DNA from: Aquabacterium sp.
Lineage (GTDB): Bacteria > Pseudomonadota > Gammaproteobacteria > Burkholderiales > Burkholderiaceae_C
DNA: 37,729 nucleotides
Assembly: GCA_023150345.1 (NCBI GenBank)
Contig: JAKLLB010000037.1
Span: forward strand, 1-37,729
Direction: 5' to 3'
The translations under genes and the position numbers were made by a program. Positions 13,037 to 17,569 of the stretch are shown in pieces. The notes beneath the pieces were generated by a model. It did not search any database. It saw only the letters and a list, made by a program, of their open reading frames with translations, and was not told the DNA's origin. Position 1 is the first letter of the stretch. The number at the start of each line of letters is the position of its first letter.

Positions 13037-14182
13037 ATGCGCATTGCGCAACATGTCTGGGATCCGAAGACCGGCTGGCGTTTCGAGTCTGCGCCGGCGG
13101 GCGCGTCCGACGCGTCGCTCCTGCTGGTGTTCGGCGCTACGGCCGCGTTGGATCGCGCAGAGGCGGTCGATGCGCTGCGCCAGCGCCATCCGAGCGCCCA
13201 TCTGGTGGGCTGCTCGACGGCTGGTGAGATCACCGGCACGCGGGTGCACGACGACTCGATCGTCGCCACGGCGATCGCCTTCGAGCGTACGGGGGTCGAA
13301 GTCGCCCGCGCCGCCATCGACGACGCCGCACACAGCGCACAGGTGGCGCGCTTGCTTGCCGACGACCTCGTTGCGCGCCACGCCGGGCTGCGCCACGTGC
13401 TCGTGCTCAGCGATGGCCTGAAGGTCAACGGCAGCGAGCTCGCGGCGGCGCTGCGATCGGCGCTGCCTGCAGGCGTGTCGGCTACCGGCGGCCTGGCCGG
13501 CGATGGCGATCGCTTTGCCCGCACCACGACCTTGGCCGATGGTGTGGCCACTTCCGCCCAGGTGGTGGCCGTCGGGCTCTACGGCTCGGCGCTGCGGGTG
13601 GGCTGGGGCTCGATGGGCGGCTGGGATCCGTTCGGGCCCTGGCGACGCATCACCAAGGCCAGCGGCAACGTGTTGCACGAACTCGACGGCCAGAGCGCGC
13701 TCGCGCTGTACAAGAGCTACCTGGGCGAACACGCGGCCGGGTTGCCGGCATCGGCATTGCTGTTCCCGCTGGCACTCGATGACGGCGATGGCGGCTGCGG
13801 GCTGGTGCGCACCGTGCTGGCTGTCGATGAAGCCACCGGTACGATGACCTTCGCCGGCGACATGCCAGTTGGCCTGCAGGCCCGGTTGATGAAGGCCAAC
13901 TTCGACCGACTGGTCGACGGCGCCAGCGGCGCTGCCCAGGCCGGCGTGGCCGGTCTGCACGATGCACCGGCGGAGTTGGCGCTGCTGATCAGTTGTGTCG
14001 GCCGCAAGCTGGTGTTGCGACAGCGTGTCGAAGAGGAGACCGAGGCCGTGCAGGACGCACTGGGACCCCAGGCGCGCCTGTGCGGCTTCTATTCCTACGG
14101 CGAGATTTGCCCGCAGGGCACGATGGGCGTCTGCGAGCTGCACAACCAGACCATGACCGTCACTACGCTCAGCGAGACATGA
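13037..14182 (+). CDS. FIST-domain sensor protein (NosP-like)
   Basis: 381 residues with an N-terminal FIST_N part (about 30-215: LLLVFGATAAL, HLVGCSTAGEI, LVLSDGLKVNGSEL, ATGGLAGDGDRF) and a FIST_C part (about 215-370: LDGQSALALYKSYLGEHAAGLPASALLFPL, GFYSYGEICP). FIST proteins are sensory; the NosP subgroup binds haem and NO and controls a kinase encoded next to it. That arrangement is repeated here: the stop overlaps the start of a histidine kinase by four bases. GGGGAGG precedes ATG 13037. A point against haem binding is that residue 190 is Trp in GWGSMGGWDPFG; I recall a His in many NosP-type proteins at this motif. FIST assignment is firm, NO sensing is inference. Confidence 0.9.
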   Translation: MRIAQHVWDPKTGWRFESAPAGASDASLLLVFGATAALDRAEAVDALRQRHPSAHLVGCSTAGEITGTRVHDDSIVATAIAFERTGVEVARAAIDDAAHSAQVARLLADDLVARHAGLRHVLVLSDGLKVNGSELAAALRSALPAGVSATGGLAGDGDRFARTTTLADGVATSAQVVAVGLYGSALRVGWGSMGGWDPFGPWRRITKASGNVLHELDGQSALALYKSYLGEHAAGLPASALLFPLALDDGDGGCGLVRTVLAVDEATGTMTFAGDMPVGLQARLMKANFDRLVDGASGAAQAGVAGLHDAPAELALLISCVGRKLVLRQRVEEETEAVQDALGPQARLCGFYSYGEICPQGTMGVCELHNQTMTVTTLSET

Positions 14183-15273
14183 CTGCGCAGCTGCACAAGC
14201 TGCTCGTACGCCAGCTGCGGCGCGCTTATGGCTCGCCCGAGGCGGCGCCTGCCGGCATGGAGGCGCTGCCGGCAGTGGTGAGCCAGGCCTACGCCGACGC
14301 CGACGCCGATCGCACGATGATCGAGCGCTCGCTCGAGTTGATGTCGCAGGAGCTGACGCAGCGCAATGCCCAGTTGCAGGCCGAGCTCGAGGAGCGCCAG
14401 CGCGCGCGGGAGGCACTCGAGCTCAAGTCTGCCGAGCAGCAGGCGCTGATCGGGCGGCTGGAAGAAGCGCACAACCAGCTGCTGCAGTCCGAGAAGATGG
14501 CGTCGATCGGTCAGCTTGCTGCCGGCGTCGCGCACGAGATCAACAACCCGATCGGCTTCGTGGCGAGTAACCTGAGCACGATGCAGCAATATGCGCAAAC
14601 AGTGGTCGCACTCGTCGACGGGCTGGCGGCGCTGGCGCCGCTGGAAGCCGGCGGGTTGCTCGAGCAGCATGAATGGGAGTACCTGCGTGAGGACATGCCG
14701 GCGCTGCTGGACGAGTCGGGCGACGGCATCCGGCGTGTCAAGCAGATCGTGCAGGACTTGAAGGACTTCTCGCATGTCGACGAGCGGGCCTGGCAGTACG
14801 CCGACTTGCACAAGGGCCTGGACAGCACGCTCAACATCGTCGCCAACGAGGTCAAGTATGTTGCCGACGTCGAGCGCCAGTATGGCGAACTGCCCGAGGT
14901 GGAGTGCCACGCCTCGCAGCTCAACCAGGTGTTCATGAACGTGCTGGTCAACGCCGCGCATGCCATCAAGGGCGGGCCGCGCGGGCGCATCGTGGTGCGC
15001 ACTTCCCAACCCGATGCCGATCACGTTCTCATCGAATTCCGTGACAACGGCAGCGGCATTGCGCCGCAGCACCTGCCCCGCATCTTCGATCCGTTCTTCA
15101 CGACCAAGCCGGTCGGCTCGGGAACAGGGTTGGGGCTTTCGCTGTCCTGGGGTATCGTACGCGATCATGGCGGACGCATCGATGTCGAGTCGCAAGTCGG
15201 CGAGGGCACGACGTTTCGCATCGTGCTCCCGGTGCAGCGTCTGGCCGGGGAGGCCAAGCCCGATGTCGCATGA
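14179..15273 (+). CDS. Cytoplasmic histidine kinase paired with the FIST protein
   Basis: 364 residues. A long coiled-coil (about 40-105, rich in Glu, Arg and Gln) leads into the dimerisation domain with phospho-His119 in GVAHEINNPIGF, then HATPase_c with NVLVNAAHAI (N box), FRDNGSGIAPQHLPRIFDPFF and GSGTGLGLSLSWGIV. No membrane segment, PAS or receiver domain is seen. The ATG overlaps the FIST stop (ATGA), so synthesis is coupled, as for NosP/NahK pairs. The expected mechanism is that the FIST protein changes autophosphorylation of this kinase. The target regulator is not identified; no HPt or REC gene is directly adjacent. The H-NOX gene follows after 90 bases. Confidence 0.92.
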   Translation: MTAQLHKLLVRQLRRAYGSPEAAPAGMEALPAVVSQAYADADADRTMIERSLELMSQELTQRNAQLQAELEERQRAREALELKSAEQQALIGRLEEAHNQLLQSEKMASIGQLAAGVAHEINNPIGFVASNLSTMQQYAQTVVALVDGLAALAPLEAGGLLEQHEWEYLREDMPALLDESGDGIRRVKQIVQDLKDFSHVDERAWQYADLHKGLDSTLNIVANEVKYVADVERQYGELPEVECHASQLNQVFMNVLVNAAHAIKGGPRGRIVVRTSQPDADHVLIEFRDNGSGIAPQHLPRIFDPFFTTKPVGSGTGLGLSLSWGIVRDHGGRIDVESQVGEGTTFRIVLPVQRLAGEAKPDVA

Positions 15274-15912: not shown

Positions 15913-17569
15913 GGCGCTGGCCATCCACGGGTTGGATCCCGCGACGTTTGCTGTTGCGCACCCGTTTCACTTCGTTGTCGACCCGGCATTGCGGCTGCAG
16001 CAGTTCGGCCGGGGGTTGGAAGCGCTGGCTCCGGACATGCGTATCGGCGCGCCAGTGCACACACACGTCGAGCTGGCAAGCCCGCCGATTGCCCTCGATG
16101 AGACGGCGCTGTGCGCGCTGCACGGGCAGTCGGTGGTGCTTCGGCTGTGCGCCGGCACAAGGCTGCGCCTGAGTGGTGCCTTCTTCCCACATCGGGCTGG
16201 CCATGTGTTCATCGGGTACCCGCAGGCATCGTCGCTGGAGGACATGCTGGCCGCGGGCCTGACCCTGGCGCACTTGTCGCCCACGGATGCACTGGGGTTC
16301 TACGTCGGCACGCTGACGATCAAAGACCGTGCGCTGGCCGACTTGGCAGAGCTGGCGCGCACGCTGGAAAACCGCGTATCCGAGCGCACACGAGATCTGG
16401 AACAGGCCCGTGCCGCCGCTGAGGCGGCCAACGAGACGAAGTCGGCGTTTCTGGCAGCGATGAGCCACGAGATCCGCACGCCCATGAACGGGGTGATCGG
16501 CACCGCGCAGCTGCTCGCGACGACGGCGCTCGACGAACGGCAGCGCCGCTACGTCGAAGTCATCACGCAGTGCGGACGGCTGTTGATGACTTTGCTCGAT
16601 GACATCCTCGACCTGTCCAAGCTCGAGGCCGGTCGCATGGAGGTCGAGCGCGTGCGCTTCGACCTCGTAGACACGGCCCAAGGCATGGTGGCCATGCTGC
16701 AGGCGCGTGCGGCGGAGAAGGCGTTGCCGCTGGTGCTGAGTGTGTCGCCCGGACTGCATCGCCACCGCATCGGGGATTCCTCGCGCATCGCCCAGATGCT
16801 GCTGAACCTGCTGGGCAACGCGGTGAAGTTCACGGACCACGGCCGCGTGGTTCTGTCGCTGGAACTGCCCGACGGGCCCGACTCCCCGCGTGTGCGCTTG
16901 GCCGTCGAGGATACCGGCGTTGGCGTTCCCGCGCAGGCGCATGGGCGCCTGTTCCAGGCCTTCTCGCAGGCACATGCCGGCATCGCGCGGCGCTACGGCG
17001 GCACCGGGTTGGGGCTGGCCATCGTCGCCCGTCTGGCGCAGGCCATGAACGGGGGCGTCGGGTACGCGCCTCGCAAGGGTGGCGGCAGCCGGTTCTGGAT
17101 CGAGATCGACTTGCCATTCGCCCATGAGGGCCGGCCCGCCGTTGAGTCGCCGGCGCAGGCGCCCGCGACCGAGTTCGCCGGCGGCGCCCTGGAACAGTCG
17201 TTGAGTCTGCTGGTGGCCGAGGACAATCCGGTCAACCAACTTGTTTTGCGCGAGATGCTCGAAGCCGCCGGCCACCAGGTGACGCTGTGCGACGACGGCG
17301 AGGCAGCACTGCGCATCGTGCAGCAAGGAGTGCACGATCTGGTCCTGATGGACTTGCAGATGCCCGTGCTCGACGGCCTGCAGACAACTCGCGCCATCCG
17401 GCTGCTCGACGGCGCGTTGGGGCGTGTGCCCATCGTCGGCATCTCGGCGAGCGTGTTTGAGTCCGACCGCCGGGCGTGCATCGATGCCGGGATGAACGAG
17501 TGCCTGGCCAAGCCGTTCGACCAGCGCAGCTTGCTCCAAGTCGTGCTGCAGCACGCGCGCCGGCGCTGA
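15881..17569 (+). CDS. Hybrid histidine kinase with HNOBA-like sensor-associated domain
   Basis: 562 residues from ATG 15881 (gagggcgacc upstream); an ATG at 15869 is the alternative. Residues 23-165 ([60 protein letters not shown], then a helix) match the HNOBA domain that follows H-NOX in soluble guanylate cyclases and in some bacterial H-NOX kinases. A coiled-coil leads to HisKA with His196 ([11 protein letters not shown]), HATPase_c ([21 protein letters not shown]) and a REC domain with Asp491 ([13 protein letters not shown]) and Lys in CLAKPFD. No HPt is present, so a separate one is needed to pass phosphate on. The gene overlaps H-NOX and is very probably its signalling partner. Confidence 0.92.

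Follow-up and report, generated by a model that had tools for sequence, protein, structure and literature searches.

Does a bacterial operon that holds two unrelated families of putative nitric oxide (NO) sensors, each followed by its own kinase, form one integrated circuit, or do the two sensor-kinase pairs work side by side? This question is raised by a stretch of 37,729 nucleotides from Aquabacterium sp. (contig JAKLLB010000037.1, positions 1 to 37,729 of the forward strand; hereafter the window), in which four plus-strand genes lie in tandem, encoding a FIST protein, a histidine kinase (HK1), an H-NOX protein and a second, hybrid kinase (HK2). An earlier note, made from the sequence alone, had described this order, paired each sensor with the kinase that follows it and proposed an integrated NO circuit. 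All four genes were found again in the list of open reading frames (ORFs) and by a Pfam search of the window, and the pairing is borne out by the gene order, by the HNOBA domain of HK2 and by a FIST-linked segment in HK1. The reading that we consider probable is that of one probable operon made up of two sensor-kinase modules, each self-contained and each with a docking part of its own kind; it is favored because the N-terminal parts of HK1 and HK2 differ and because the four-gene order is confined to one lineage in the sample, and for the same two reasons the integrated circuit is not supported so far. The features of the locus are as follows.

13037..14182, plus strand: FIST protein, NosP-like soluble sensor of 381 amino acids (FIST N and FIST_C; Pfam)
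14179..15273, plus strand: HK1, non-hybrid histidine kinase of 364 amino acids (His119 in HEINN; without REC; Pfam)
14191..14397, plus strand: proposed FIST-partner adapter at the HK1 N-terminus (LHKLLVRQLRR...AY....DADRTMIERSLELMSQEL; without Pfam match)
15364..15912, plus strand: H-NOX, 182 amino acids (His104, YYSHR at 133-137, Leu143; Pfam and alignment)
15881..17569, plus strand: HK2, hybrid kinase HNOBA-HisKA-HATPase_c-REC of 562 amino acids (His196, Asp491; alternative start 15869; Pfam)
15935..16147, plus strand: HNOBA segment of HK2, presumed H-NOX docking part (Pfam match)
17210..17545, plus strand: REC domain of HK2 (Pfam)

The evidence for a docking part in the first module comes from the N-terminus of HK1. 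By Pfam this protein consists of the kinase core only, with HATPase_c at 92.6 bits, HisKA at 25.3 bits, just below the cut-off of 26.9, and a HEINN motif at His119, while its first ~70 residues gave no Pfam match. This segment, here called the adapter (consensus MHxLLxRQLRR ... AYxxxDxDRxLxERSLxLSSxEL from 20 rows), was present in the gene adjoining FIST in the 20 highest-scoring of the first 48 FIST loci and in 0 of the 28 others, where the 20 include a near-duplicate of the window (L014) and one locus (L016) whose match lies in an ORF outside the FIST-partner pairing list, and where a match to profile positions 59-97 only (L071, among the 28) was not counted. With the profile frozen, the adapter was adjacent to FIST in 34 of 43 new loci, and in 33 of the 37 in which FIST scored at least 290 bits; the four misses are L130, where the adapter gene lies upstream of FIST, L131, L139, whose contig ends 80 bases past FIST, and L104, a plasmid-borne FIST that has no partner. 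Altogether 35 ORFs matched in the new loci, L130 alone being upstream of FIST, and the matches at L119 (16 bits) and L141 (21 bits) were weak. Since both locus sets had been drawn from FIST loci, a whole-genome search was added, in which a FIST of at least 190 bits was found in 26 of 200 family genomes and the adapter in 30, both occurring together in 26 of the 26 and separated by 8-114 nt in every case (Fisher p = 9e-29, not to be taken at face value given that the genomes are related). The 200 genomes were drawn evenly in both the FIST and the adapter searches, and the same genomes are among the matches listed for both; one of them (G104) has a second FIST piece (C754) that ends at a contig edge.

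The adapter heads simple kinases, hybrid kinases and GGDEF/EAL enzymes alike, and it tracks the sensor gene, not the output domain. Because it accompanies the sensor gene whatever the output domain, it is best read as a putative docking site for the FIST sensor. No description of such a segment was found in the parts of the open-access literature covered by our search.

Several loci show the same sensor in front of an enzyme instead of a kinase. At L050 (615-3168) FIST is followed by a GGDEF or GGDEF-EAL protein with the same adapter (Pfam), and local profiles gave the same arrangement of FIST with an adapter-GGDEF or adapter-GGDEF-EAL protein at L016, L110, L115, L123 and L141, loci which suggest that FIST may act on enzymes of cyclic di-GMP (c-di-GMP) metabolism without a kinase. 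The partnerless FIST gene of L104 (NZ_CP082855.1, 4476-5642; 43% identical to that of the window) lies on a conjugative plasmid, flanked by hypothetical genes, with genes for a P-type ATPase and for efflux close by.

The second module is of a more familiar make. The H-NOX protein matches HNOB over the full profile (140.6 bits, positions 1-163 of 163; Pfam) and aligns with Nostoc Alr2278 (E = 8e-36) such that its His104 falls on His105, and it keeps the YxSxR motif as YYSHR at residues 133-137; we take this histidine and YxSxR to be haem-site residues of the H-NOX family. Because both are kept, NO sensing by the H-NOX protein is likely. Its Leu143 aligns to Met144 of the Nostoc protein, presumably the distal position, and a non-polar residue there suggests binding of NO or carbon monoxide rather than oxygen. 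At the N-terminus of HK2 lies an HNOBA domain (37.4 bits, cut-off 23.4; Pfam), followed by HisKA, HATPase_c and REC, and this confirms the HNOBA-like domain named in the earlier note. The start of HK2 precedes the stop of H-NOX. Counting the window, 6 of the 13 H-NOX places in the family have a kinase with an HNOBA domain beside H-NOX.

The layout of the four genes is consistent with joint expression. The FIST gene starts at ATG 13037, preceded by GGGGAGG, and its stop is at 14182; the junctions agree with the first description, namely a 4-base overlap in which the HK1 ATG at 14179 lies within ATGA, a gap of 90 bases between HK1 and H-NOX, and a 32-base overlap between H-NOX and HK2 when the latter is read from ATG 15881 (44 bases from the in-frame ATG 15869). 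The window genome (assembly of 4.58 Mb) holds one H-NOX gene and two FIST genes, the second being divergent and without an adapter partner by profile (G000:C172; L020, 6472-8307). Random placements in this genome would bring one such FIST/H-NOX pair within 10 kb with a chance of ~0.4%, yet here only 1.7 kb separates the two genes, they share a strand and the junctions are tight, which places their neighborhood beyond chance. The four genes form a probable operon, with co-transcription predicted from their layout. Scans of the locus gave no promoter-like site and no terminator-like site in the 90-base gap, results that say little, the terminator scan having returned one site, at 13743 within FIST, where 1.7 are expected by chance. 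The locus is also found in a second assembly (JABWBN010000011.1, Burkholderiaceae bacterium isolate MAG_31, our L014) at 99.3% DNA identity over 7.5 kb, which makes an assembly join unlikely; this contig, judged by coordinates, is probably the one that appears as G204:C345 in our genome set, and, being nearly identical to the window, it does not count as a separate case in evolutionary terms. On the 3′ side an AraC-type regulator gene (17593-18738) follows on the minus strand.

Based on these findings, the two modules can be pictured as follows. In module 1, the FIST protein, as a NosP-type auxiliary sensor whose ligand is probably haem with NO, would bind the ~70-residue N-terminal adapter of HK1, and this docking would change HK1 autophosphorylation, upward or downward. 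In module 2, H-NOX would bind NO through haem on His104 and act on HK2 via the HNOBA domain. The adapter on one side and HNOBA on the other would separate the two inputs where sensor meets kinase, while both modules would be under common control. Their outputs would probably lie outside the operon, which encodes none save the receiver of HK2 itself.

How far module 1 deserves the name NosP is a question of its own. The earlier note had called the FIST protein NosP-like, and this part stands on family membership, on the architecture of the partner and on the c-di-GMP neighborhood of relatives, from which we regard the protein as NosP-like with ligand binding predicted. Pfam FIST (171.8 bits) and FIST_C (130.8 bits) are the sole domains of a protein of ~380 amino acids, as in NosP, and it adjoins HK1, a kinase without a Pfam sensor domain. 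At L044 (4847-9690), FIST, an adapter-PAS-kinase and a REC-PAS-GGDEF-EAL protein lie in a row, the last directly after the kinase, an order that matches nosP-nahK-narR as described in the parts of the sources available (PMC11237717; PMC8846402). L134, where REC-HD_5 and REC genes lie 5′ of FIST and the kinase shares 51% identity with HK1, resembles nosR-nosP-nosK as far as the accessible text describes it (PMC12570481). Of the other near relatives, L105 and L107 carry an EAL-GGDEF-REC protein and L108 a GGDEF protein nearby. A REC-HD-GYP-type gene is within 1.5 kb at at least 23 of 52 adapter loci, among the matches listed for a local profile seeded from the Pfam HD_5 match of L134. What did not stand is an identification by the NCBIfam NosP model (NF041558), which was dropped, although ten other FISTs tried on this model did not pass either (best 77.8 bits, three without match) and it is a narrow NosP model, too narrow to decide. 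No solved structure related to the FIST protein was found at a meaningful E-value (best 0.19).

Several observations weigh against the two-module reading or parts of it. The FIST protein reaches 66.1 bits on NF041558 where the cut-off is 450, and no haem ligand could be assigned in it from residue conservation: C320 is equally conserved in divergent FISTs, and H369 is present in 89% of the 61 FISTs that score above 290 bits, six of which have no adapter partner, versus 35% of 31 others. The 190-bit line for FIST was set after the scores had been seen, and some FIST match occurs in 45 of the 200 family genomes; no adapter partner accompanies the FIST of G078 (168 bits; L142) or that of G183 (141 bits; L143), and four genomes have the adapter only (G107 at 69 bits, G117 at 48, G012 at 30 and G001 at 28). 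Moreover, HNOBA was not detected by local profile at 7 of the 13 family H-NOX places.

It is possible, if rather unlikely, that the FIST protein senses haem or another small ligand and not NO, so that the operon would join NO sensing to the sensing of haem or a metabolite. FIST was first proposed as an amino-acid binder, and the 5′ neighbor on the plus strand is an asparaginase II gene that ends at 12846, 190 bases before FIST; furthermore, the FIST of CdpA in V. cholerae has been reported to respond to haem, as far as the available part of that paper goes (PMC8846402). Against this, NosP proteins with similar partner genes alter kinase activity with NO in the portions of two studies at hand (PMC12570481; PMC11237717), and the asparaginase neighbor is not conserved: a tblastn search of 132 further locus stretches, mostly FIST loci and in part overlapping, gave no match at E <= 1e-6. 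Amino-acid sensing by FIST, as suggested by this neighbor, was rejected on the latter ground.

A second explanation, doubtful in our view, is that the two modules are neighbors by chance, an H-NOX module having been recently inserted beside a resident FIST-kinase pair with a shared promoter at most. The earlier note had proposed a synteny search for the four-gene order. FIST is present in 116 of 171 H-NOX genomes (11/12, 53/80, 22/46 and 30/33) and lies within 10 kb of H-NOX in three of them (G000, G204 and G693), counts that are lower bounds since draft contigs can hide neighbors. Two of the three (G000 and G204) form one lineage with the window, and the four-gene tandem was found only there (2/171); in G693, FIST is 5.2 kb from H-NOX on the opposite strand with other genes between. 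The search gave one lineage, and the idea that a conserved gene order would prove an integrated circuit was rejected. Within the genus, H-NOX occurs in just 3 of 21 genomes (12 of the 21 reach 90% completeness or more, with contamination no higher than 5%), and the third copy (G011) is on another contig than its FIST and only 27% identical over 137 residues. On plasmids, four Paracoccus records carry a distant H-NOX, none of them among the 40 of 95 FIST records listed. The confinement to one lineage and the 90 bases between the modules would fit an insertion, whereas the shared strand, the shortness of that same gap, the lack of a terminator-like site in it (by the weak scan) and the matching functions of the two families argue against mere chance.

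The integrated circuit itself, in which HK1 would pass phosphate to the REC domain of HK2 (Asp491), appears improbable. A single receiver would then be charged under either sensor, and the usual c-di-GMP effector of FIST systems would have given way to the H-NOX module. What speaks for it is the company that FIST keeps elsewhere. In two near relatives, L105 and L107, the EAL-GGDEF-REC protein is divergent from FIST. In 52 adapter loci, a count that excludes L014 because it nearly duplicates the window, the partner itself has a REC domain in 38 and is a GGDEF/EAL enzyme in 6. The remaining 8 comprise L129, cut by a contig end, six loci that have a gene with REC or GGDEF no more than 1.5 kb away, on whichever strand, and finally the window, where no c-di-GMP effector or response regulator was found within 1.5 kb of FIST-HK1 besides the REC of HK2, the sole receiver there.

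Against the shared receiver stands the kind of receiver that HK2 has. The HK2 REC domain gave a median of 81 bits against 86 hybrid-kinase receivers and a median of 47 bits against 27 receivers of HD-GYP regulators (146 of 163 receivers gave a score); because it resembles the hybrid-kinase receivers more, its partner is more likely the kinase that carries it. Within the sample, moreover, the arrangement is limited to one lineage, and a response regulator for HK1 may lie elsewhere, the window holding receivers at 5232-5735 and 31326-31910. The former is a lone receiver protein on the minus strand, beside a HisKA-HATPase-REC-Hpt hybrid kinase (5675-7612) and on the same strand as a GGDEF protein (2711-4192), and this set could be a phosphorelay for the kinases of the operon. 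The region 30408-35444 encodes a universal stress protein, a REC-domain protein, a nitronate monooxygenase-type protein and a CRP-type regulator. An extended version, in which a two-input gas/haem relay converges on the HK2 receiver and the HK1 N-terminus is an unnamed adapter that, across several proteobacterial classes, links FIST sensors to kinases as well as to diguanylate cyclases, is likewise quite unlikely.

The two-module reading bears on the route from a FIST/NosP protein to its kinase. For NosK, a kinase with a HEINN motif, the consulted part of the source describes ~130 N-terminal residues without a recognized sensory domain (PMC12570481). The adapter is a well-delimited target for deletion or exchange, and it makes FIST partners findable by sequence. 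Furthermore, the operon brings both sensor families and their kinases into one natural unit, in which selectivity and cross-talk are testable with four purified proteins.

How does the locus compare with known systems? As in NosP-NosK-NosR of Burkholderia and NosP-NahK-NarR of Legionella, FIST directly precedes a soluble kinase, the kinase has HEINN and an N-terminal stretch without Pfam match, and relatives of the pair lie beside REC-HD or REC-GGDEF-EAL genes, a likeness that is by description and not by sequence comparison. It differs in that the window pair adjoins an H-NOX module and not a response regulator; the c-di-GMP response regulator that belongs to the NosP-NosK-NosR operon is absent within 1.5 kb in the window, and present in several relatives. 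HnoK and HahK are hybrid kinases with an HNOBA domain, and the second module shares with the HnoX/HnoK and HahK type the overlapping genes and the kept haem-site residues, while differing from it in having no gene for a cognate response regulator or Hpt protein in the operon and a FIST-kinase pair in front.

At the level of the cell, the combination has precedents, since Shewanella oneidensis, Vibrio cholerae and Legionella pneumophila likewise possess both the NosP and the H-NOX family of haem NO sensors. In S. oneidensis and V. cholerae the two genes are at separate loci, and a study by Nisbett and colleagues from 2019 reportedly deals with Shewanella. Separate loci are also given for L. pneumophila in the accessible part of its source (PMC11237717), and for V. 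cholerae the two sensor families have been reported to converge on shared pathways (PMC8738867, as far as available). In a genome neighborhood network (fig. 6), the same partly available source places FIST genes in the surroundings of hnox for H-NOX "group 1"; its text, in the portion at hand, gives neither gene order nor kinase pairing. Both module types, cells with both sensors and FIST near hnox are already known. For a tandem of both complete sensor-kinase pairs no description was found in the parts of the open-access literature searched.

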